The notes under the pieces were generated by a model. That model did not search any database. It was not told the origin of the DNA and worked only from the letters and a program-made list of their open reading frames with translations. Shown piece by piece: positions 2,918 through 49,369 of a stretch of DNA of 64,000 nucleotides (the stretch's first letter is position 1; every line of letters begins with the position of its first letter). A program made the position numbers and the translations under genes. This stretch comes from Catonia carolina (lineage: Eukaryota > Arthropoda > Insecta > Hemiptera > Achilidae), in contig JAQMRL010000006.1 of assembly GCA_035578175.1 (NCBI GenBank), forward strand, positions 67,109,001 through 67,173,000, in the 5' to 3' direction.

Positions 2918-3246
2918 AGCCGCTCTAAGTTTGCTCCTACTGTCAACAAACCAAAACCAGCTACTACAGGGTGCACGCTAGAGTCCGTGACTTTATGGAT
3001 GTCGTATTTCTATTAAGTTAACTGTTTTTTAAATTATAAGTACTTAAAGTACTAAAAAAATCAGTCGTGATATGATGTAGGCCTAACAATTTAATTTAGA
3101 AAAATACTTTAAAAAGTATTTTGTATTTAAATACTTTTGAAATTATTTAGTTGTTACTTTTTAATCAGCGTGTACACATTTAGATATAATGCGCATGCTC
3201 AGTGACGTCATTATTTGTTTACATTAGGAGCAAACTTAGAACGGCT
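2918..3246. mobile_element. MITE with ~33-bp terminal inverted repeats, copy 1
   Basis: A 329-bp non-coding element. The left end AGCCGCTCTAAGTTTGCTCC matches the reverse complement of the right end (AGCCGTTCTAAGTTTGCTCC). The inverted match continues through CTA, TGT and AACAAA. A second full copy lies at 52709-53034, with strong identity throughout. Superfamily unknown; the target duplication is not clear. Both copies keep a TGACGTCA box close to the right terminus. Confidence 0.85.
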
Positions 3247-4341: not shown

Positions 4342-4773
4342 TGTTACAACTCGTTATAGTAAAGTAAAATTGTAAACTTTTATTTAATTAATTCACATAT
4401 AGTTATTTAACACAATTATTTGACAAGAAATAAAAACTAACCTTTACAAACGACAACTATGAATATGAGTTTATGACAATAAGTTATTAAACATTGAAAA
4501 TAATACAGTTCACGCAATTAATTAACAATAAAATAAAATAAACAATATCCCTTACCAAATTAAACATTAAATAACAATATCTGCTGACAAAATAACAAAC
4601 TTCACCGTAACGAAGATTCCCGTACAATTTAGACCACTAACACGTCAGCCATTCAAACCGCGGCCGCGTCCCAACAATGAAAACCATCGTTTTTATATTT
4701 AACCAGTCAGCTGTTTATGAGAAGCTGATTTTATTTGACCAGCTGATTTTATTTTTGCCACTTCATTATAACA
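4342..4773 (-). mobile_element. Solo LTR, copy 1 (minus strand)
   Basis: On the minus strand this reads TGTTATAATGAAG ... GAGTTGTAACA, the TG...CA ends of an LTR. It closely matches the plus-strand copy at 28828-29230 along its length, including a NotI-like GCGGCCGC core and AATAAA signals near the 3' end. There is no adjacent primer-binding site, gag or second LTR, so it is a solo LTR left by recombination. The flanks are TA repeats and a target duplication cannot be read. Confidence 0.75.
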
Positions 4774-5080
4774 CCATATATATATATATATATTAATAAA
4801 TTTACAATATATATGCATATTGTTGAATAAATTTATTCGAATAAAATGTTCTTTAATTTTTAAAAATGAAGTAAATGTAAAAAGATATACTGGTCGGTTG
4901 CTATGATTAATATCGAATGTGTTCTTGCTAGTGTGAAAGTCATGATTGAAGAGTGGGAGAATAGTGTACATCGATATGTGATAGTTTTCGTCCAATAGTG
5001 AAATTCAAACTTATAATCATAACTGCGTCAATGAATATTTCGACCAACCAAAATTTACTCCATAAGACTACATGTAAGCA
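4774..5080. other. Spacer before the virus-like cassette
   Basis: A TA repeat (4779-4794), then AT-rich sequence with a 14-bp palindrome GAATAAATTTATTC near 4825. No coding content is supported. If the cassette downstream is an inserted element, its left boundary should lie here, but no matching terminal hairpin or inverted repeat is visible. Confidence 0.4.
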
Positions 5081-5131
5081 AGTTTTGTTTAAATACGATA
5101 GCATTTTCATTGCAAATCGTATCAGTTCAGT
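5081..5131 (+). promoter_or_regulatory. Candidate Pol II core promoter
   Basis: A TATA-like TTTAAATA at 5088-5095 lies about 35 bp before two arthropod initiator pentamers TCAGT (A at 5124 and 5129). The start is inferred. It is supported by the ATG-free leader and the strong splice donor just downstream. Confidence 0.45.
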
Positions 5132-5276
5132 GTAATTAAGTGTGAATTTCTAATTGTCTGCTTCTCAGTTTTTTGCGTTATAAATTAATTCTTCACAAGT
5201 TAATTTTTTTAAATTTATATATCACATTAAAAAATTTTATTCGTCAACAATTTCTACATTTTTTCAAAAACATCAA
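5124..5276 (+). other. Putative shared non-coding leader exon
   Basis: About 153 nt between the candidate initiator and a strong 5' splice site (CAA|GTAAGTG, GT at 5277-5278). There is no ATG in it, as expected of a selected 5' UTR; random AT-rich DNA of this length would usually hold one or more. The nearest acceptor, ACCTTTGTAG at 5367-5376, would give an intron of about 100 nt. The same donor could also join to acceptors at 5978 and 6912, each just before an ATG. Exon limits are inferred, not measured. Confidence 0.5.
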
Positions 5277-5396
5277 GTAAGTGTTAGTAGTATTTAACTT
5301 AGACGCTTTTAATTTTTTTTCTTGAAATTATATTAAACTTTTCTAGTTATATTTATATATATTTTTACCTTTGTAGAATTCAATATTGACTTAACC

Positions 5397-5711
5397 ATGG
5401 AACCAGTAAACAAAAAGTTAAAAGTTAGTGATACCGAAGAGACTGTTTCCTCCAGTAGCGAGGACAGCGATTGTTTTGAAAACATCTTTGGTGGACCCAG
5501 TAGTAATGTGGAAAAGAAGAAGAGTGAAACTTATATTCAATCCTTCGCCACACTGAAAAACGGGACACAAAGAAAAATTTCAACGCCCGGGGAACGTGGG
5601 GCATATCTGATTAAAATTGAAGTCACAGACACCAGGGACCTGAAGGGTGTGCCAGTAAATGATCGCTGGCGCAAGGTGGCAAAAAAACGATATTTTTATC
5701 ATCTCCCCTAG
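5397..5711 (+). CDS. Cassette ORF 1, unknown acidic/Ser-rich protein
   Basis: This encodes 104 aa with an ideal start context (ACCATGG), 20 nt after the acceptor TTTGTAG at 5370-5376. Residues 1-12 carry a basic patch (NKKLKV) that could act in nuclear import. Residues 14-30 are Glu/Ser/Asp-rich (TEETVSSSSEDSD). The C-terminal half is charged. I do not recognise the family. At 5681-5687 there is a run of seven A before C. In the -1 frame the reading stays open and codon-like for about 70 more residues, to about 5891, while the annotated frame stops at 5709-5711. This is either a one-base indel or a -1 frameshift site. First ORF of the cassette shared with the dUTPase. Confidence 0.55.
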   Translation: MEPVNKKLKVSDTEETVSSSSEDSDCFENIFGGPSSNVEKKKSETYIQSFATLKNGTQRKISTPGERGAYLIKIEVTDTRDLKGVPVNDRWRKVAKKRYFYHLP

Positions 5712-5981
5712 ATGAAAATTATTTGTCTATAAGAAAAATATTAAAAAATGTTAATTCATTATCTAAAATTGAAGGACTCAAAAAAAGTCGAAAAAATTTA
5801 ATAAATTTAACATGTAAAGATACAAATTCGTTTAATTCGAATCCCATCTTTATAATAAATTTGAAGAAAAAAATTATTTCATTTATAAATTAATTATGAT
5901 TAAAAATTTATTTTTTATGCATGTGTTAATGGTTTTTTTTAGTTTAAAAATTTAATAAGTATTTAAATATCTTTGTAGAAA

Positions 5982-6425
5982 ATGGCAGCTGAACAACCTA
6001 GCATGTCAGTTGAAATGATTTTTGAAGAAATATATGAATTGGGAGTAAGGTCCATCCCAACATTGACTTCATTAGTTTCAAAAATGCGGGGAAAAATTAA
6101 TTTTGAACTATTAAATATAAACATTCAACTTGAAGTAATTCAGTTTGTAATTTTATTTAAAAAAATACTTGCAGCCCTTAAGAAGGGGATTACACTTCGT
6201 GTTAATTCTCAATTACGATACGAGGAATACCAAACGGCAAATTTAACACTGATTCAAATGATTGATTTCATAAAAGAAGGTGATTCGCAAATCTTGAATA
6301 ATAGAATTTCAATGGAATGTTATGAGTGTATTCATGAACCTATTGAACAACTTGTAATGTTAATAAATGAAAATGTAGTTTTAGTCGATAGTGATAATGA
6401 TGATGGAGATGATGGTATAGTTTAG
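5982..6425 (+). CDS. Cassette ORF 2, unknown helical protein with acidic tail
   Basis: This encodes 147 aa. The ATG (AAAATGGC) starts three nt after the AG of a strong acceptor, ATATCTTTGTAG at 5967-5978. The protein looks mainly alpha-helical (EEIYELGVRSIP, then alternating hydrophobic and charged stretches) and ends in a very acidic tail, DSDNDDGDDG. No signal peptide or clear membrane segment. I do not recognise the family. Just after the stop another frame stays open from about 6419 to 6556 with protein-like composition rich in Lys and Arg, but it has no ATG. The GATGATGG repeat at about 6400-6415 may have gained or lost bases and cut off the true C terminus. Confidence 0.55.
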   Translation: MAAEQPSMSVEMIFEEIYELGVRSIPTLTSLVSKMRGKINFELLNINIQLEVIQFVILFKKILAALKKGITLRVNSQLRYEEYQTANLTLIQMIDFIKEGDSQILNNRISMECYECIHEPIEQLVMLINENVVLVDSDNDDGDDGIV

Positions 6426-6556
6426 TTAGTAAATTAAAACGTAAAAATAATACTGAACATACCCAAATTGTAGGCATTAAACTGTGTAGAGGAACTAAAA
6501 TTATTTCTAATAAAGTTAAAAAACATTGGTCAAATGAATATTTAGTTAATGTGTAA

Positions 6557-6724
6557 ATGATTCCTCTACACATGAATTTTGCTCATAAATCAGCAACATT
6601 TATAACTAAATTCGGAGATCAAAACGGAAAAATATTAAATAAACTTTTTAAAAGCGTTTCTCAGTCCATGACGGATGGATCCTTGATCGAAACGGTTGAT
6701 AGTGAACTATCAAAAACACAATAA
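6557..6724 (+). CDS. Small ORF in the cassette, 55 aa
   Basis: The ATG directly follows the TAA (6554-6556) that ends the preceding open frame, giving TAAATG with no spacing. The product is short and hydrophilic and matches nothing I know. An AATAAA overlaps the stop (6720-6725) and could be a poly(A) signal for ORF 2 transcripts. It may be a real small gene, the displaced C terminus of ORF 2, or chance. Confidence 0.3.
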   Translation: MIPLHMNFAHKSATFITKFGDQNGKILNKLFKSVSQSMTDGSLIETVDSELSKTQ

Positions 6725-6914
6725 ATATATATATTACTTTTTTAATTTAAATAATCAGTGAAGGGTATAAATTAACATAACTAGTTTATAATTATGTGTT
6801 ACCGAAAAGCGTTATAAAAAGTAGACTATTTTGACATCCTTATATTTAAGCAGTATAACTTCCTTTTGTATCGTGAAAACTTTCGTAAATAAAATTTTTA
6901 CTTTATTTCTAGAT

Positions 6915-7403
6915 ATGGATCATCAAATTGGATATTCATTGTTGACCCCCCTTGCATTTGAACCAGTTAAGGGAACTCCTGGGGCTGCAGGATATGATTT
7001 AAAAGCTTGTTGCTCAATAAATATACCAGAACATTCTAGGAAACTAGTACCGACCGGAGTTCGGTTACATATGCCGAAAGGTGTATACGGACGGATCGCT
7101 CCCCGTTCGGGGCTTGCTTTGAAAAATGCTATTGACATTGAAGCAGGCGTGATTGATAAGGATTTTACAGGTCCAGTATCTGTACTATTGATTAATAATA
7201 GTGATGCAGGATTTGAAGTATCACCTGGTGATGGAATTGCGCAAGTCATTTTTGAAAAAATTGTTGACGATAATTTAATTAAATATCCTATTGATTTTAA
7301 TAGTGAACCAAGTGAGCGGGGAGAAGGTTCGTTTGGTTCGAGCGGAATTAGTAAACTAATAAATAATTCCACATATGGAAAAAATAAATTATCCCTTCAC
7401 TGA
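6915..7403 (+). CDS. dut: dUTP diphosphatase (trimeric dUTPase)
   Basis: This encodes 162 aa. The enzyme hydrolyses dUTP to dUMP and pyrophosphate, keeping uracil out of DNA and supplying dUMP for dTMP synthesis. All five motifs of the homotrimeric family appear in order: 1 GAAGYDLKA (~25-33), 2 GRIAPRSGLALK (~57-68), 3 AGVIDKDF with the catalytic Asp (~76-83), 4 GDGIAQVIF (~104-112) and 5 RGEGSFGSSG (~137-146). Length is normal for the family. I start at 6915, not at the upstream in-frame codons, because TTTATTTCTAG at 6902-6912 is an excellent splice acceptor ending two bases before ATGG. AATAAA motifs follow at about 7410-7425. It is intact in one exon, unlike the decayed transposons around it. 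Large DNA viruses and some retroviruses carry such genes; a host paralogue is the alternative. Confidence 0.93.
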   Translation: MDHQIGYSLLTPLAFEPVKGTPGAAGYDLKACCSINIPEHSRKLVPTGVRLHMPKGVYGRIAPRSGLALKNAIDIEAGVIDKDFTGPVSVLLINNSDAGFEVSPGDGIAQVIFEKIVDDNLIKYPIDFNSEPSERGEGSFGSSGISKLINNSTYGKNKLSLH

Positions 7404-7470
7404 TTAAAAAAATAAATGAAATAAATTATACTTCAAATTATTTTATAAATTTATTTAACTTAAAATTTTT

Positions 7471-7522
7471 TATTACTACTTTATCTACTGCATTATCTAA
7501 TGCCGTAGATAAAGTAGTAATA
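7471..7522. other. 52-nt near-perfect hairpin at the cassette's 3' end
   Basis: The 18-nt arm TATTACTACTTTATCTAC (7471-7488) is perfectly complementary to 7505-7522. Its loop holds a second inverted repeat, GCATTA-TC-TAATGC. Together they form an almost continuous 24-bp stem with one T/C mismatch. It lies about 70 bp after the dUTPase stop. It could be a transcript 3'-end structure, a viral terminal palindrome or a recombination site. Confidence 0.8.
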
Positions 7523-7689
7523 TTTTGAGATCAACTCCCATGTTGGCCAATATATTTATTTTTCATTTATTTTTCTTACAATCACCCTGCCTCCCCCTAC
7601 ATATTTATCACCTAGTAACCTACAAAAATTTTTTATGCTTAACCTAAACGATTTTAAAATCCTGTAAGTATAGTGTGTGTTAAAATATA

Positions 7690-7720
<31 letters not shown>

Positions 7721-9138
7721 TATGTAAAAAATAGCTGAATCAACAATCATAGAAGTATAATTATAATAGTAAATAATAACGATTTTAGCAACACTACGGT
7801 TGTACTACTTTAAAATAAAATAAATGAACACAAATTTGGTTTTAAGACTTTTAATTAAATAAAAATAATAATAAATAATTGATAATGTAACAAAATGACG
7901 ACTCTAATTTACAATATTCTCAGGGTTTTGATTTTATAATTGTTTATTGTTTTGTGCAATAATTTTTATAATGGACAACAATTGAAAATTTAAGATTAAC
8001 AAAAGATAATCGATACTTATTAATATGAATGTAATACTGGTCTTTCTAAAATTTTGAATATTAATTAAATAATTTTGAATTTGTCAATAGATAAATAAAT
8101 TTTGAAATGTATCTCAGTTAATTAAATAAAAATTTGTTGAATTTTACCGGTGTACTTTACTAGTCAGCAAATAAAGCGAAGCGGTGTTGTCGATGGCGTC
8201 TGTCGATAAAACTCGAATCTTGAATTTAAAACTTTAAGATATTTTATTTATTATCCGAATCTCCGTTTACGCATTCATGATGAAATACACCTTAGAATTT
8301 TGTCTCTTCTTCAATGTACAATCCAACATTATCAATAACTTTAAATATTTATAATTTTAATTTTTATTGGAGCGTTCTCATTCGATGTGTTCAGTACGGC
8401 TGGCTTTGGCGTACCGCTCCATGAGTCCATGATTCAAGTGACCATTTATCATCTTTAAATTTTGATTCAATATTTTAAAACTGTTCAGGAAATTTGGATC
8501 ACTGTTTAAAAAGATATAGCGTATACTATTTTAGTTATTAATGTTTTTAGTTAGATAGTTTATCTTAATTTCGATTTAACTTCCTTTTTACTAATTATAA
8601 TTTAGTTGCGCACTTCGATAACGTAGTACTCGCTTCTAATGTCGTTGTTCGTAGGTTATATAAATTTTAAAACTATTGAAAATAAACTAATATATTCTAT
8701 TAATTAAAAATGGTTATTTTTCTTTGCCAGTATCTATCCTTTATAAAGCTATTCATACTATTTAAAAGTTTTAACAATTATATATACCAAGTATTACTGG
8801 AGTTGATCTTTTCTACCTAAAAATTAAGTAGTGGACAACCTGTCTGCTTGACCTAGTCCACTAAATAAAATGTAGGTCAAGTTCATGCTACACGTTGGTG
8901 GGATACTATCTAAACTTTTGCCCGTGTATTACTTGACGAAAGCGCCCGCGTTTTTCTTGTGAACTTGAGTAACACTGGGTGCAATACAAACAATACTACA
9001 TATTGCTGCGGCACTGACTCGGCATATAGAGTCTTTACAGTGTTCATACCATGCTAAGCTTAAGTATTAAATTAAATTGACAATTTTATTTTATGTTTTA
9101 AAAATACATATCAAATCAACGATCTCACTTTAATAAAT
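7523..9138. other. AT-rich, no gene; (TAA)n at 7690-7722
   Basis: About 1.6 kb without supported coding sequence. A TAA/AAT microsatellite runs from 7690 to 7722. The open frame at 7556-7750 (minus) is a product of that repeat. Nothing else recognised. Confidence 0.5.
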
Positions 9139-9946: not shown

Positions 9947-10892
9947 ATGTTTGGTAACTGCAGCGCGTGTGATTTAAGCTGTGAAGGGGTCAGTGATGTG
10001 TTTAAATGTGCTGGTGGTTGTAACAGTGTTTACCACAATAAATGTGCGTCGAATAAGTTTCCGGAGGGAATGTTGACACGTGGTGCGAGGAAGGACTGGT
10101 ATTGTGGGGATTGCAAAAAATCTAAGACCCCATCCATTAGCAGTAAGTCAGAGGATAATTCCACTTCTCTGACTAAAGAATTTATGATTCAGCTCATTCA
10201 AGAAAGAAATTTTCGGTGAGTTAAAATCGTACGCAAGCCAGTTTCAAGAATTTCAGAAGTCGCTGGAGTTTTTCTCGACTAAACTTGATGAGTCTAATAT
10301 GAATATGGAGGCCATTAGGTCTCAAAATAAGGAAATTATGGAAGACAACAGAAGTTTAAAGCAGGAATCACGTGTGCTATCCCAACGAATTGGCGTGCTG
10401 GAAAACAAGGTGAGGGAGTTGAAACAGTACTCTAGGCGGAATAATATCGAAGTTAACGGCAGACCAAAAACACCAGATGAAAGTGAAATGGAAATTCTGC
10501 GTGATCTGGGTCGAGTCATCGGGGTGGAGGTTGATGTGAGGGAGGTAGTAGCAGTGCACAGGGTACCATCATACAATAAAGCTAGGACTCCGTCTCTCAT
10601 TGCTCGTTTCACCACCCGGGAACAGCGCGATACCTGGTTAAAGAAGTACCGAGAGAAAAAACGTATCATGGCTTGCGATGTCAACAGGGATTTTGCGGCG
10701 ACCAGGGTCTACATCGGGGAACACCTCACACCTGATAATAAGGTTCTCCTAGCTCAGATGAAGGAGATATGCAAGTCTGAGAATGTACGGTTTGTGTGGT
10801 GCCGTGGGGGCAAATTCTACGTGCGTAAGTCAGAGGGTCACAAAAGTGTTAGAGTCATCCAGGCTGATGATATCAAGAAGATTAACTGGTAG
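9947..10892 (+). pseudogene. LINE ORF1: PHD finger, coiled coil, FP-like domain (one frameshift)
   Basis: The N-terminal 65 residues hold a PHD-type zinc finger with Cys/His in C-x2-C, C-x3-C, H-x4-C, C-x2-C spacing (CSACDLSC, CAGGC, YHNKC, WYCGDC). A coiled coil follows (SQNKEIMEDNRSLKQES, then a Leu/Arg-rich stretch with QYSRRNNIEVNG). The C-terminal domain (VYIGEHLTPDNK, FVWCRGGKFYVRKSEG) resembles the C-terminal region of baculovirus FP proteins, which is common in insect LINE ORF1 proteins. A single frameshift near 10205-10215 separates 9947-10219 from 10299-10892; the bridging frame is open. The intact protein would have had about 315 aa. Such proteins bind the element's RNA as a chaperone. 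Confidence 0.85.
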
Positions 10893-11309
10893 GGGTATTG
10901 AGTATTTTGTTTGTTATAATGGACATCTCTATCGCGGTGAGTTTTGTTTTTGGCCAAATTATTGTTTTGTTCAATTGCGATATTATGTATATGTTAAATT
11001 AAATTTTGTTTTGGTTCTTTGAAACTGTACAGCATTAGGAATATTGTTTATGTTAATTACTTTGTTGTGGGTAAACTTATGTATAGGCTTATAATCCGAT
11101 TTGATTTATCAACCTTTGATTGTTTGTACAATTTGTATTTATTTATTTTTTCACATGTCGGGCATGAGCCAATGTTTTTTATTAACAATTTTTTTATTTT
11201 TTATGTTACTTTTTTCGAATGTTGTATCAGTAAGTGTCAATTTCTTTGGCATACTAACCTGCTATACTAATTGTTGTGTACAATCTTAGTTTTGTTGTAT
11301 TAATGTCAA

Positions 11310-13194
11310 ATGGACACAGAATGTATAGCGTTCAATGATTTGGAGAACAACTTTTTCGTTTCTCATGACATGAAAATTAACTTTATCAATGTCAATATAA
11401 GAAGCATTAGGAAAAACTTCAATTTGTTTATTGCCCTATTTAATAAACTCTTAGAATCCAAATCGATACAATTTGTGATAATGAGTGAAATCTGGATAAC
11501 TAATGCGGAATTAAAACTATGAAATTTCTGGTTATTTTTGCTTCGCTAATTGTAATGAGACTTATCGGGCCGGAGGCTCTCTAATCTATGTAGATAAGAA
11601 CATTAATGCTACTCAGGTCCCATGCCGTCTCACCTCGGCTGACTGTACACTCTTACAACTTAAAATTGATAATTTGCTTTTTTCTATTGCTGGTCTGTAT
11701 AGACTCCATGGTGTTTCGCTATCAATTTTTTTACAAGAACTCCCGACTTTCCTTGCAAAATTTAAAACAAACGCACTGTTTTTTGGTGATGTAAATGTGG
11801 ACATACTCGGAAAGGCAAATAATCCTGATAGGGATCGTTATATTTCAATCATGAACAACAGTGGACTTACGTAATTAATCAACATTCCTACTCGCATAAC
11901 TGATATTTCTAAAACATGTATAGACCATATTTTTGTTCGTTGCAGTAATATGAATGCACTGAAAGGTGGTGTTTTTGATATCGACTTATCTGACCATTGT
12001 GCAGTTGGATTAAATCTTTCTATCCCTAATAAAAAGTCATTTATTCCTAATCATGTCTATGATAACAAAAAATACATTGATATAAATAAATTAAAATCAC
12101 ACCTCCAATTAATAAACTGGAACGGAATTTTTAACAAAAATGATGTTGATTTCAGCTTCAATCAATTTCATTCTTTACTATCAAGTTGTTTCTTAGAAAA
12201 TTTAATTAAGTGAACAATTGTTTAAGTGATGAGAGGGTGGCAGGAGTTGGCGTCCCTCAGGGATCTGTCATTTCAGCAGATCTTTTCTCGTTATTTATTA
12301 ACGATTTATTATTTGAACCCTTCTATGGTAGAATTACAGCTTTTGCTGATGATATTGCATTTATCTACGCAAGCGATGAATGGTCGAAAATTTATGACTT
12401 TATATCACATGATTTAGTATTGCTAAGAAAATGGTGTGAGAGAAATGCAATGGTAGTAAATGCATCAAAAACAAAAATAATTAGTTTTGACTTAGTCGGT
12501 GTCAATTTCGATCGTGACATTAAATATCACGTTTGTTCCGATCCTGTTGGATGCAGCTGCGAAGTAATTGAACAGGTAAAAGAAATAAAATATTTAGGAT
12601 TGATTCTTGATGATAAGGTCTCCTTTAGAAATCATGTAAATCAGCTACATTCTGATATCAGTAAATCAATTCGGGCATTTTATTTCTTAAGAAACCTTTG
12701 TGGCTTACATTTAATGAGATCTTTATACTTTTCTTTGGTTCAATCGCGTCTTCAGTATGCTAATGAATTTTGGGGGCGGTACTCATGATAAACTAATAAA
12801 TAAATTGTTTGTAACTCAAAAATATTTCATTAAAATATTATTATTTAAACGTCAGAGAGACAGTACTGTTAATGATTTTAAAAATTTACGTATCATGCCC
12901 ATTAAAAACTTATTTATTTTTAAAGTTTTAAAACTATTTTATAAAAAAAGTGGCAACAGAGGTACTGAAAACTTATATCACAGAACTAGAGGTTCAAGCC
13001 AACAACTTTTTGTAAGACCGAAAGTTAATAAATCCTTTTTTGCTAAAACTTTTGTTTTTTTGGGTCCGAAGTGTTTTAATCTGTTGCCTATTGAAATTAA
13101 AAATAGCTTAAACGTGTTAATATTTGCAAGAAAAGTTAAAGATTGGCTCAATGAGATAACTGATGTTGATTCACTTGTAAGAATTGTTGGTTAG
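11310..13194 (+). pseudogene. LINE ORF2: endonuclease and reverse transcriptase, broken
   Basis: The N-terminal part (INFINVNIRSIRKNF, FVIMSEIWI) is an AP-like endonuclease. After a frameshift near 11520 it continues with GGSLIYVDKN, FGDVNVDIL and finally LSDHCAVGL (endonuclease D-H motif, about 11990). A deletion near 12210 then joins directly to late RT motifs: GVPQGSVIS (12250), AFADDIAF (12343, catalytic Asp pair intact) and KYLGLILDD (12590). The last part (12757-13194, a frame change) is the typical Jockey/CR1 C terminus. RT motifs 0 to 3 are missing, so the enzyme cannot work. Confidence 0.85.
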
Positions 13195-20764: not shown

Positions 20765-21184
20765 ACAAATAATATCTGCCCATAATAGACAGATGGAGTG
20801 TCAAATTATTTACACTCAATCTGTCCGTTGCAGGGCTAAAATAAATAGTACTGTTTCTTATCACGTGGTCAGCCAATTAAATGACTTAATCATTTAAGAA
20901 CAGAAGAGGTAGAGGTGTAAAAGACATTAATGAGAGTTATCTCTTCTGAAAGTAATGAATTTCATTATACAGCCAGACCCTGTGGTGAATGAAGTGAAGG
21001 TATCATTTGCAGAGTGGAATGTATGTACTTTTCAGAGGGCCCGGCATGCTGATAAGCATACTTTTCCACTCAGTGAGAAAGGCAATGGTAAACCACCTCA
21101 CTCCTCGTTTTACTTAGTAAAACCTCTAGAGGTTCAAACCAGCCTTTCGGCTGATGACCTAAACAACAACAACAACAAATAATA
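20765..21184 (+). repeat. (AAC)-tailed SINE-like retroposon, copy 2
   Basis: Element 20775-21174, starting TCTGCCCATAATAG and ending GGCTGATGACCTAAACAAC plus AAC repeats. The target duplication ACAAATAATA lies at 20765-20774 and 21175-21184. The best-preserved copy in the window. Confidence 0.88.
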
Positions 21185-21230
21185 AATATATGCGTAAAAT
21201 CATTTAGAACAGTACAGTGCACATTGTAGT

Positions 21231-22488
21231 TTATTTTGAGCCTAAGAATAAATACAATATATTTTTTGTTAAAAGTGGCTTTATTGCTTTTCAAAATATT
21301 CCCCTTTAAGTTTTTTACACTTTTGCATGTGTTGGAACCAGTTCTCATAGCATCTTTTCCAGTCTGCGTCGGGTACCTCCAAAACATGATTTTTGAATGC
21401 TTCAACAGCTTCTTCTGCTGACTAAAACCGTTGTCCTCGCAATTTATCCTTGATAGTTGGGAACAAAAATAAATAATTGGTGCCAAATCTAGACTGTAAG
21501 GCGGATGACCCATCAATTCAATCTTTTGAGTGTTGAAAAAGCTGGTTGTTTCACGAGATGTGTGGGAGCTTGCATTGTCTTGATGGAGGATGATCCGACA
21601 ATTTTTGTTTGTTTTTCTGATTTCATCAAAGACTACTGCAAATAAATGGTTGTATACCATTCAGAATTTACTGTTTTTCGCTCCTCTAAAGGTACTGTTG
21701 CCACATGACCAGTTTTCCTGAAAAAACAGGCGACCATATGTTTTGAAGTGCTCCGAGCATGAACAACTTTTATTGGGTTCGGTTAGTCTTAAAACACCCA
21801 TACCGCCGACTGTTGTTTTCGTTCTGGCTCGTACGCATATACCCATGATTCGTCACTTGTTACAAATCTTATATACCTCTTTGGAAGCTCAAACATTGAA
21901 TATTTTAATCATTTTTTGCACCAATCGATACGAGCATCTTTTTGGGCTTTTGTCAAATTGTGTGGGATCCAACGACAACACACCTTTTACACAGCTAAAT
22001 ATCCGTGCAATATTTTATGTATGCTAGTGGAACTAATGCCTAAAGAAGTCTCAATCTCAGAATATGTCACATGGCGATCTTGGATGATCATATTTTGCAC
22101 AGCGTCAATGCATTCAGGAACAACAACCGACTTTGGGCGACCTTCACGAAATTCATCATTGAGAGAACGACCACCACGATTGAACTCGTTATACCAGTGT
22201 TTCACAGTGGCATAGGATGGGGCTTCATCACCAAAAGTGGAATTAAGTTGATCAGTGCACTGCTGTCTAGTTGATCCACGTCGGAAGTTGTAATAAATCA
22301 TTGCACGAAAGTTTTCACGACTCAATTTCATTTTTTGACTGACACAATCTTTTAAATGGCTACAAACGACACAAACAATGCTTTGTTTACAATATATCTG
22401 GTGTAGGTTATTGTTAAAAATGTCAAACTTTCAAATAAAAACATCAGCTGATACCCAACAACAATCAGTGCTGCCGAGGCTCAAAATA
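21231..22488 (-). mobile_element. mariner element (SETMAR-like), inactive
   Basis: About 1.26 kb, the normal size for mariner. The ends share the inverted match ATTTTGAGCCT (21234-21244, and its complement near 22476-22486), with TA at the edges. It holds one transposase gene on the minus strand, broken by frameshifts. Confidence 0.85.
21290..22331 (-). pseudogene. mariner transposase (broken)
   Basis: The N terminus (22331-21987) reads MKLSRENFRAMIYYNFRRG, then FGDEAPSYATVKHWYNEFNR and EGRPKSVVVPE. These are the paired helix-turn-helix and GRP-like linker typical of SETMAR-related mariners. After a frameshift the middle (21846-21661) keeps the region before the second catalytic Asp, with FFQENWSCGNSTF. 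The last part (21660-21290) has ILHQDNASSHTS (second Asp) and LMGHPPYSLDLAP, where the third Asp of the DD34D triad is kept. Several frame changes make it inactive. It would have cut and pasted the element at TA sites. Confidence 0.88.
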
Positions 22489-45870: not shown

Positions 45871-46249
45871 ATTGCACTTCACAACCAGGTCTCTTATAGC
45901 TGATTTTCATAAGGAAGAGCACTAGGCAAAACGTGCGTCTGCATTAGTATAGTCTTGTATGTACTGCAATAGTGCAGTGTAAGTAATCAACAATGGAACA
46001 GCATGCTTACAAAATACAATGGTTGTTAATTTTCAACAATACTCACTGTACATCTTACAGGTGGTCGAAGTCAAGTATGCGCATATGTAGTCCAGTGCTC
46101 ACAGCAAGGCCTTTATAAGTGTGAGCATGTACGTATCAACAGAACTCACACTTGTGAATGTATATAAATTAATGTTTAATGTTTTAAAAAACAGTTAACA
46201 CTGTAATTTTAAAGTAAAACAATTGTTTGTAAAAGTAATTAATAATTTC
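45871..46249. other. Unassigned spacer
   Basis: No coding or repeat signal recognised. Confidence 0.35.
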
Positions 46250-46700
46250 AGGTTATTCATCGGCTTGAACTGCCAAGACCAATTTTCCGTAGTGCGTTGA
46301 AATCCTCCACTGGAAGCGTGGACACTGCTACTGGAAAAGCTCTCTCACCTGGAATAGAATGGACTGCACTAGCAACTACATTTTTGGAAGGATGCTGACC
46401 TATCGCAAAAGCTGCTGCATTAAATGAAAATATATTGTAATCCACTGCACTGAACCAACCCTGTTTGATGCACAGATGAGACATTACAGTAATCTATGTA
46501 CTAGTTAATTAGATTTACTCACATGATTAATCACAGTTAAAAAATGAACATTGTTTTATAGTAGGCCTACCAAACAACCACCGGTTATACCCCATGCACG
46601 TGTGTCGTCCCCCAGTGTATTGTGTCTTTATTCAAATCTTTCCCAAGTCTGGTTCAGGTGGGAATTGGGAACAGTTGTTTACGTAGGAGCAAACAAGACC
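46250..46700 (-). pseudogene. Unknown repeated gene-like unit, copy U1
   Basis: The minus strand carries two conserved coding blocks found in other copies nearby. Near 46690-46606 it reads CSQFPPEPD then IKTQYTGG, with one stop between. Near 46325-46257 it reads LPVEDFNALRKIGL. The open frame 46484-46257 (75 aa) covers the second block and adds SIPGERAFPVAVS. I do not recognise the family. Conservation of peptide rather than only DNA between copies suggests that it once coded for protein. Confidence 0.5.
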
Positions 46701-46964
46701 AGGATTAGAATTAAATAAAGTAATTTAGCCAAAAATAAATCTGTCCACACATATTACCGGAACATGTGAATATTTATAAATTTAATATTTTAAAACCCAA
46801 CAGTTCACAAGTATAAGTAAATAGTATAACAGTTAAGCATAGTATAGTTAGTATAGTATAATAGTATTAGTAAATAGTAGGCTAAGTATAACAGTTCAGT
46901 TCACAAGTTATAGTAAGTAAATCATTATTTAAAAATTAACTCACTTTGGATCATTTAATATTCC

Positions 46965-47375
46965 AGGTTTTTTCATCAACTTGAACTGTCAGACCAATTT
47001 TCCATTGTTGAAACTCATCCACTGGAAGCTGTAGGCTTCTTTGGTAACTGAAATCTTTGAAGGATCTTGAAATCACGGAACGGCTGAAACAAATGAAATA
47101 TGCTGGTGTACCACTCTACTGAACCAACACTATTTGATGCACAGATAAGTACATTACAGTAAACTTTAAATTAGTTAATCTCATACTCTTGTTTAATCAT
47201 TGTTCAATAATGAACAATATTTCATAGTAACCCTATCAAAGAATACCTGTTATACCACTTGTACTGGTGTTGTCCTCCCAGTGTATTGTCTATTCTCTAT
47301 TTTAATCCTGTCCTCATCTGGCTCTGGTGGAAACTGAGAAAAGTTGCGTTCCAGGGTATTCAAACAAGCCCAGGA
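46965..47375 (-). pseudogene. Unknown repeated gene-like unit, copy U2
   Basis: The minus strand reads NFSQFPPEPDEDRIKIENRQ then YTGRTTPV (about 47355-47270), and LPVDEFQQWKIGLTVQVDEK then TWNIK and a stop (about 47032-46955). It lies directly after U1 in the same direction, with a spacing near 700 bp. The best copy of the C-terminal block. Function unknown. Confidence 0.5.
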
Positions 47376-47400
47376 TTAGAACTAATGTAACACGATACAC

Positions 47401-48230
47401 AAAAAAAATAATAAATAAACAAATAAAAAAAAAATAAAAAAAATAAAAAATTTTTTTAAAAAAATAAATAAAAAAACTAAATAAATAAAAAATAAAAAGT
47501 ATAAAAATAACAAGTAAAAACATAAAAAGTAAATAATAAAAAAGTAAAACATAGTGACAAAATAAAAAATTTTTAAAAAAAAGTAAAAAAATAAAAAAAT
47601 AACAAAGTAAAAGAATAACAAAGTGAAAAATGAAAAGTAAAATAAATGAAAAAGTAAAAAATTTAAAAAGTAAAAATAAAAAAGTGAAAATAAAAAAGTA
47701 AAAAAAATGAAAAAATAAAAAAATGAAAGTAAACATAATAAAATGTATAAAAATAAAAAGTAAAAACAGAATAAGTAAAAACATAAAAAAGTAATAAAAT
47801 AAAAAAGTAAAAAATAAAAAAGTAAAACAAAGTAACAAAATAAAAAAGTAAAAATAAGTAAATAAGTAAAAAAGTAAAAAATAAAAAAGTAAAAGAGTAA
47901 AAAAGTAAATAAATAACAAAGTAAAAGAATAACAAAGTAAAAAATGAAAAGTAAAATAAATGAAAAAGTAAATATGAAAAAGTAAAAAAAATGAAAAAAT
48001 ATGAGTAAAAAAAATAAAAAGTATAAAAATAAAAAGTAAAAACATAAAAAAGTAAAAAAGTAACAAAATAAATAAGTAAAAAAAGGTAAAAAATAAAAAA
48101 GTAAAAGAGTGAAAAAGTAAAAAAATAACAAAGTAAAAAAAAGTAAAAAGTAAAAAAAATAAAACAGTAAAAAAAACGAAAAAGTAAAAAAAAAGTGAAA
48201 AAGTAAATAAAAAAACAAACAAGTAAATCA
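47401..48230. repeat. 830-bp A-rich low-complexity tract
   Basis: The plus strand is almost entirely A with scattered G, T and C (AAAAAGTAAAAAATAAAAA-like words). A longer word, ATAACAAAGTAAAAGAATAA, recurs at about 47598 and 47911, which suggests a higher-order period near 313 bp. It sits between gene-like copies U2 and U3. Long minus-strand frames here (Phe/Leu/Tyr only) are artefacts. Confidence 0.9.
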
Positions 48231-48544: not shown

Positions 48545-49338
48545 CAGTTCTTAGAAATGACGCGATTGGGAAACAAGCGTTGCAAAACATTAATTGAAGC
48601 CCTGGATGTGTGGCAGGTAGCACCGTCTTGTTGAAAAAACATGTTTTGGTAAGCCGGATTAAGAACTAATTCCGTTTGAAGATGAAGATAGTTCTTCAAC
48701 ATGTTAACATAGCGCTGTGTATTCACTGTAATTGCACGTTCATTGTCATCCTAAAAAAAATGGTCTTACGATAGCCTGTGTTGATATTACACACCAAACT
48801 GTCACTTAAATACTGTGAAGCGGCTTTTCGTGAATTTTTTGTGGATTTTCGCGTGACCAATAACTAAAAAATTCTGCTTACTTACGAAGCCCGAAAGATG
48901 GAAGTGAGCTTCATCACTCATCCAAAGATTGTTGAAAAGATCTGTGTTGTCATTCATCATGTCCAATAATTGATTACAAAAAGCAAGTCGAGATCCGTGA
49001 TCAACATTATTCAAAGGGTGCACTGACTGAATTTTAAATGGATGGAACTGTAGATCTTTGTGTAAAATCCTCCTTACGTTGCGATTAGAAATGCCGAGTG
49101 ATATTGCATGCCGTCGACTTCTTAAAACAGCCGCCTGCACCTTGTCAACGTTTTCTGGTGTACGGACACTTTTTACGCTTCCAGTTCGTGTCTTCAGTGT
49201 TGAGCCTGTTTCTTCAAAGTTTTTAACCCATATTTTTATTGCATGGGCTGAAGGTATCTGATCATTACGCGGAATATTGAAATAATTATGAAATGCGTGC
49301 TGCGTGAACTTATCATTATTTTTATAATACTCGTGCAC
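48545..49338 (-). pseudogene. IS630-like transposase, frameshifted
   Basis: The minus-strand frame 49338-48802 (178 aa) reads MHEYYKNNDKF, then FNIPRNDQIPSAHAIKIWVK (helix-turn-helix), TRTGSVKSVRTPENV, and LWMSDEAHFHLSGFVSKQNF with the first catalytic Asp. After a frameshift the frame 48726-48544 has FFQQDGATCHTSRASINVLQ with the second Asp. The end (WPPRSPDLxxCDFFLWG region) is missing. This family is widespread in arthropods. Inactive. Confidence 0.88.
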
Positions 49339-49369
49339 CGCTTAATAAATGCCTCTGTAAAATAGGTTC

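Follow-up and report, generated by a model that had tools for sequence, protein, structure and literature searches.

Which kind of element gave rise to a compact cluster of three open reading frames (ORFs), the last of them encoding a dUTPase, in the genome of the hemipteran insect Catonia carolina (Achilidae)? The cluster lies in a stretch of 64,000 nt (the window, to which the positions below refer unless another sequence is named), which corresponds to positions 67109001-67173000 of contig JAQMRL010000006.1 (C101) in a genome of 1.47 Gb; the G+C content of the region is 28-29%. An initial annotation described a complete virus-like cassette in which one leader is spliced to several ORFs, and regarded it as an endogenised or domesticated DNA-virus segment or an unknown mobile element. 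On the basis of its copies and relatives, we consider it very probable that the cluster is the early region of an insect Polinton/Maverick, truncated at both ends, and likely that in the relatives a leader is spliced to the early ORFs.

Copies and extent of the window fragment

The fragment occupies positions 4795-7459 (plus strand), from the intergenic stretch between the DNA polymerase gene (PolB) and ORF1 to just past the dUTPase gene; its left limit (4795-4826) is approximate and sits in an AT-rich repeat. The three ORFs were found with the lengths first reported (104, 147 and 162 aa) at 5397-5711, 5982-6425 and 6915-7403, all on the plus strand. The dUTPase frame is open over its full length (PF00692, 2.2e-33; TIGR00576, 2.5e-38). 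ORF1 and ORF2 are front parts of longer proteins whose ends lie in other frames, and the view of a complete compact cassette had to be abandoned. ORF1 retains the first 104 aa of a protein of ∼142 aa, with the last ∼40 codons out of frame (67% identity in one frame, and 62% for the tail in another, to ORF1 of the sister group B described below), whereas ORF2 retains 147 of ∼252 aa, with the remainder (∼6422-6700, ∼100 codons) out of frame and identities to group B of 43% and 39% in two frames.

Other copies in the genome, which the initial annotation had proposed to look for, comprise six that are 91-99% identical to the window fragment at the DNA level and form group A with it, as well as group B. 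Group A copies were located at C101:66.72M (99% identity to the window), C101:67.00M (98%), C101:66.11M (partial, 98%), C1:83.71M (L012; 94% overall and 94.7-97.2% in a second alignment), C1:158.12M (L013; 94% and, likewise, 95.2-96.9%) and C1:60.79M (L014; partial, 91% over window positions 5843-7459). The three C101 copies have the flanks of the window and are therefore segmental duplications of the host chromosome. The duplication common with C101:66.72 Mb covers at least 4342-9032 (plus strand, 98.2%), including the fragment and its flanks, and additional pieces of it are found at C101:67.00 and 66.11 Mb. Comparison of these copies indicates that the Polinton fragment was later copied with its flanks inside one chromosome.

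The copies on C1 lack the window flanks, homology ending on the right at 7459 and, for C1:83.71M and C1:158.12M, on the left at ∼4795-4826. Past those limits C1:83.71M and C1:60.79M continue into PolB, which is encoded on the opposite strand, whereas C1:158.12M does not. Together with the hallmarks of group B, these PolB-linked relatives point to a truncated Polinton/Maverick instead of an unknown mobile element. The window copy is a derived fragment and not a complete member of the class. It was also observed that L014 (C1:60794248-60798918) is a mosaic, in which the ORF2 and dUTPase DNA is ∼91% like the window, ORF1 49%, and PolB ∼95-97% like group B; this composition suggests that recombination may have occurred between Polinton groups.

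The homology limits also bear on the 52-nt hairpin that had been noted just after the last ORF. A near-perfect palindrome does exist at 7471-7522, and 81 nt around it fold with a minimum free energy of -31.6 kcal/mol (z -11.4); it lies outside the viral homology and is therefore not part of the viral unit, belonging to the flank. It was also discarded as a possible signal for 3' processing of the cassette, since viral homology ends at 7459 and the palindrome begins at 7471. The hairpin flank recurs at C101:66308621 with a shorter palindrome and no cassette beside it.

A 22.2-kb Polinton of the sister group

Group B is a divergent sister group of the window fragment, in which ORF1 was matched at full length (residues 1-101, 69% identity) nine times and partially once more. 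Its genes are arranged as PolB (minus strand), ORF1, ORF2, dUTPase and a 101-aa ORF, so that leader, ORF1, ORF2 and dUTPase follow each other as in the window, and the two copies retrieved were 99.2% identical across 8 kb. One copy is an element of 22,236 bp at C1:117205632-117227867. Its ends are AGTAG...CTACT, its terminal inverted repeats show no difference across at least 368 bp, and it is bordered on both sides by a 6-bp target duplication, ATGTAC. Target duplications of 6 bp are the rule for Polintons.

The gene content of this copy, which was read in separate pieces, includes an integrase (L071; PF00665, 1.6e-8, with a chromodomain at 9.5e-4, below its cut-off), an A32/FtsK-type packaging ATPase (L071; PF04665, 2.2e-8), a double-jelly-roll capsid protein (PF21738, 4.9e-96; 1.8e-101 in a further group, C), a PLA2 domain (1e-13), two BIR proteins (5.6e-30 and 1.8e-21) and a metalloprotease (matrixin PF00413, 2.3e-32) with hemopexin repeats. 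ORFs resembling a cysteine protease and a minor capsid protein by eye, with no Pfam match, precede the capsid gene. PolB, a putatively protein-primed family B polymerase, matched a DNA polymerase family of PHROGs (4.7e-7, residues 578-752), and what appear by eye to be polymerase motifs A, B and C could be seen in two group B PolB pieces. PolB, integrase, ATPase, capsid, inverted repeats and target duplication are hallmarks of the class (a set given in part in PMC11071308 and PMC6431247), and group B is therefore a Polinton/Maverick. The PolB ORF L062:1-2562 (minus strand) contains in addition an endonuclease VII-like segment (PF02945, 5.3e-6; residues 533-574) directly before the polymerase match.

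Segmented bidna-like viruses also have DNA genomes that encode PolB and nucleotide enzymes, and genes for a dUTPase or thymidine kinase are frequent on their segments, as described in the portions of PMC11071296 consulted. The dUTPase of the window would fit such a segment, as would the dUTPase of two further families, F and G, the former of which also carries a deoxynucleoside kinase (dNK) and a PLA2 domain. However, the viruses described in those portions have a parvovirus-type single-jelly-roll capsid and an NS1 helicase, with no integrase described, whereas group B combines an integrase, an A32 ATPase and a double-jelly-roll capsid in one 22-kb unit with a 6-bp duplication. Descent from a bidna-like segment is contradicted for groups A and B, and we regard it as extremely unlikely for the window; for families F and G it may still apply.

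Polintons appear to be abundant in this genome. The capsid family PF21738 gave 593 candidates genome-wide; 126 of these were scored and all matched, 120 of the 126 had no internal stop, and many had identical scores. The Polinton load of the genome thus appears to be large and recent. Two families are represented by L066-L069 (C1:129.76M, 223.98M, 182.65M and 335.26M), in which the compared copies were 99.5% and 99.9% identical over most of 8 kb. L066 encodes a dUTPase, a PLA2 (PF08398) and a deoxynucleoside kinase (PF01712), and L068 has ORFs that look similar by eye, as well as a 320-aa ORF resembling by eye one of group B. Pattern scans of IMG/VR with PolB, capsid, ORF1 and P0001 dUTPase returned 69, 42, 36 and 3 matches, respectively, with no relative among them.

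Origin and state of the dUTPase

Genome-wide, PF00692 gave 133 matches, two of which are host-gene exons; many of the others, located on different contigs, are open frames that score identically. The two host DUT matches lie 6 kb apart (C1:59374631-59374792 and C1:59368206-59368355), are 67% and 74% identical to ant DUT, and show by eye a donor and an acceptor at their facing ends. A phylogenetic tree was built from 43 sequences (35 of 120 listed homologs, out of 162 found, and 8 sequences of this genome). The window dUTPase grouped with Polinton dUTPases of groups A and B and of L002 and with the metagenomic protein P0001 (support 100/97), which the group C dUTPases joined with weaker support (92/91), whereas host DUT grouped with the DUTs of ant, locust and phylloxera and two unnamed proteins (97/98). 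A match to the dUTPase family would be expected as well if the locus were host DUT itself or had arisen from it by retrocopying, but this separation in the tree and the linkage of ORF1, ORF2 and PolB in the relatives leave hardly any room for such an origin. The initial proposal of an endogenised, DNA-virus-like segment that is not a host gene, for which a tree of host and viral enzymes had been suggested, agrees well with these data.

The description of the enzyme as intact held in part. Its frame is open with a strong family match, and all five dUTPase motif regions align by eye in the window protein. Two motif-region positions at which C1:83.71M and group B agree, however, are changed in the window as well as in C101:66.72M and C101:66.11M.

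Could the host have kept this frame for its own use? The window copy is the only one of the seven group A copies whose dUTPase frame is open throughout, and its comparison with C1:60.79M (8 synonymous and 4 non-synonymous changes; synonymous divergence (dS) 0.076, non-synonymous divergence (dN) 0.011) would be in line with domestication. On the other hand, dN and dS are nearly equal relative to C1:83.71M (0.025 and 0.027; 3 synonymous and 9 non-synonymous changes). The corresponding synonymous and non-synonymous counts were 1 and 0 for C101:66.72M, 2 and 3 for C101:66.11M, and 5 and 9 for C1:158.12M (C101:67.00M, with 73 gap columns in the alignment, was left out), and divergence is too small for such counts to reveal constraint or selection. 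Furthermore, ORF1 and ORF2 of the window are broken, the dUTPase frame is broken in the other six group A copies, including the three segmental duplicates on C101, two positions at which the relatives agree are changed, and the host has DUT exons of its own. Domestication, which the initial annotation had allowed for, is therefore very unlikely. We conclude that the window dUTPase is the last open frame of a relic that has not yet been hit, and the window copy as a whole is probably a non-functional relic of a Polinton.

ORF1 and ORF2

Neither ORF1 nor ORF2 had a Pfam or NCBIfam match, which bears out the earlier statement that they belong to no recognised family. Genome-wide, they gave 77 and 25 matches, respectively. 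A search of a large protein database with group B ORF1 yielded 47 candidates, none at E≤0.001; ORF1 had no PDB match below E 0.36, and its one weak match in PHROGs (8.4e-4) was to a family without assigned function. Single-sequence AlphaFold models of window ORF1 and ORF2 had a mean predicted local distance difference test score of 47.6 and 47.8, respectively. A block of ORF1, TPGE.GA...KIE.TDT.DLK...W.KVAKK, is kept in groups A, B and C, and ORF1 is thus the conserved core. The group C protein L064:3332-4081 was considered as an ORF2-ORF1 fusion. The second half of this protein resembles ORF1 (42% in the alignment), but the fusion was dropped after comparison of its front with ORF2 gave an hhalign probability of only 18.6%; 'fusion ORF' is used below only as a label.

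A predicted leader-spliced early unit

The TATA-like box and the ATG-free leader noted initially were confirmed in the sequence. The box, TTTAAATA, lies at 5088-5095 (plus strand), and its counterpart in groups B-E reads TATATAAA or TATATAAG. The spacing from box to donor is similar, the box lying 185-263 nt upstream of the donor in the five copies measured. The predicted leader exon (5117-5276, plus strand; start site assumed) contains no ATG and ends in ...ATCAA/GTAAGTG, the slash marking the donor between 5276 and 5277. The predicted intron to ORF1 would span 5277-5376, with alternative acceptors ending at 5978 for ORF2 and 6912 for the dUTPase; the three acceptors are followed by their ATGs after 20, 3 and 2 nt, respectively, as had been noted. 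A GTAAGT donor upstream of ORF1 was present in all eight copies examined (directly after CAA in seven, and at position 3182 in group B L062), which represent four lineages by our grouping (A; B with B2; C; D with E). The leader was free of ATG in three of five measured.

Acceptors were evaluated by a strict rule, a YAG at most 25 nt from the ATG, preceded by 12 nt of which at least 9 are pyrimidines. Among the early-ORF starts of groups A, B and C, 8 of 12 satisfied the rule (two of three in the window), compared with none of 21 starts of other genes chosen from B, C, F and G (Fisher P=3.6e-5), a selected list and not every gene of the elements, and 10 of 221 other ATGs in the same stretches (P=9.7e-8). 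It should be noted that the rule was written after the sites had been inspected and that related copies are not independent, so these P-values are not blind. Within window positions 8001-60000, 54 of 849 ATGs and 269 of 4000 random positions passed. Sites of this type were also seen by eye, outside the counts, before ORF2 in further A, B2, D and E copies and before the dUTPase in further A, D and E copies (the estimated start in B2 was off). No acceptors were found for the group C late genes tested on the same strand (protease, minor capsid and capsid).

A different explanation accepts the Polinton fragment and gives each early ORF its own promoter, the acceptor-like sites being a by-product of T-rich DNA before ATGs. 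The AT-richness of the region, the background ATGs that pass the rule, the early ORFs that fail it and the late formulation of the rule are all compatible with this idea. Yet it does not readily account for the excess of acceptors at early starts over both control sets, or for the position of the donor, which precedes the first ORF by a similar 120 nt in A, 133 nt in B and 139 nt in C, even though blastn does not align the A and B leaders (its alignments with group B L062 contain nothing from window positions 5133-5397). We consider separate promoters rather unlikely, and a shared-leader, alternatively spliced early unit, predicted from this layout, likely.

Several observations weigh against our interpretation as a whole. 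First, the window holds no hallmark Polinton gene: when the proteins of the relatives were compared with the whole window by tblastn, matches were obtained solely for ORF1, ORF2, the dUTPase and the ORF1 part of the group C fusion protein, and none at E≤0.01 for integrase, ATPase, protease, capsid proteins, PLA2, BIR, metalloprotease or both PolB pieces. Second, PolB had no Pfam polymerase match and no credible PDB match. Third, the dUTPases of families F and G were placed elsewhere in the tree, and therefore a single origin of Polinton dUTPases is not required; no acceptors were found in these families either (dUTPase with PLA2 and dNK). Finally, the leaders of groups C and E hold two and one ATGs, respectively, past the assumed start site, and four early ORFs miss the strict rule (ORF2 of A; the fusion ORF, dUTPase and o255 of C), all four having by eye a TAG or CAG near the ATG with a weaker tract.

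The element would resemble adintoviruses, double-stranded DNA viruses that integrate. Where relatives keep full frames, transcription driven by the TATA-like box would start with a short leader ending at a strong splice donor, and alternative splicing of this leader could yield a set of mRNAs, each with its own ORF first, as the conserved layout suggests. The early set would comprise ORF1, ORF2 and dUTPase, with one to three more ORFs in groups B and C. Judging from its family and its position next to the polymerase gene, the dUTPase most likely keeps dUTP low while PolB copies the DNA of the element in dTTP-poor cells, and ORF1 and ORF2 are likely to be early replication or host-interaction proteins. 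The arrangement of one leader for several ORFs proposed in the initial annotation is kept in relatives with longer frames.

Comparison with known systems

Alternative splicing of shared leaders is used for adenovirus late and parvovirus mRNAs. The unit described here resembles these systems in joining one leader to several ORFs and differs in that it is predicted for the early block of an integrating element. Among Polintons/Mavericks (adintoviruses; Eupolintoviridae), Drosophila-associated adintovirus 1-3, of 13.3-14.6 kb according to the parts of PMC8363768 consulted, have PolB, integrase, capsid and packaging ATPase (FtsK) in common with group B and are insect-associated and possibly integrated. 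In contrast, group B is 22.2 kb long and adds a dUTPase, a PLA2, two BIR proteins, a metalloprotease and a seemingly leader-spliced early unit; the main text of PMC8363768 contains no words starting with dUTP or phospholipase.

The only paper found with both adintovirus and dUTPase was PMC11071296, whose consulted portions place dUTPase genes on segments of bidna-class viruses. No dUTPase-bearing Polinton or spliced early leader appeared in the titles and abstract beginnings covered, and no paper was found on a Polinton with IAP and phospholipase together. Polinton, dUTPase and Maverick are all mentioned in the full texts of PMC4981718, PMC5601938 and PMC5753468. Within the literature covered, the kind of Polinton is known, and what is new is probably the accessory genes and the probable expression scheme.

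Other features of the window

Remains of a non-LTR (long terminal repeat) retrotransposon were found at 10188-12788, with a Baculo_FP-type ORF (PF25298, 1.4e-11) and a reverse transcriptase (PF00078, 2.1e-12). Frames that resemble, by eye, pieces of transposases lie at 21070-22430 and 48802-49341 (both minus strand). A degenerate A-rich tandem repeat array of ∼0.8 kb occupies 47402-48191, in a region with a strong AT skew (0.254 over 46001-48000).

Implications for insect Polintons

The window copy alone is an ordinary relic of little interest. Its relatives point to a wider picture, which we put forward tentatively: the genome may host a large, recently mobile set of capsid-encoding Polintons, some of which would combine a kit for nucleotide hygiene and host manipulation (dUTPase, anti-apoptotic BIR proteins, metalloprotease and PLA2) with adenovirus-like leader splicing from a single promoter to three to five ORFs. 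Animal Polintons could be living viruses or transposons, a question that is still open. The near-identical copies described here, with their genes for capsid, packaging, apoptosis inhibition and nucleotide metabolism, and a predicted early splicing programme that lends itself to testing make this insect a practical host in which to seek transcripts and particles. In addition, genes annotated in insects as dUTPase, BIR or metalloprotease genes may be viral and should be interpreted with caution.

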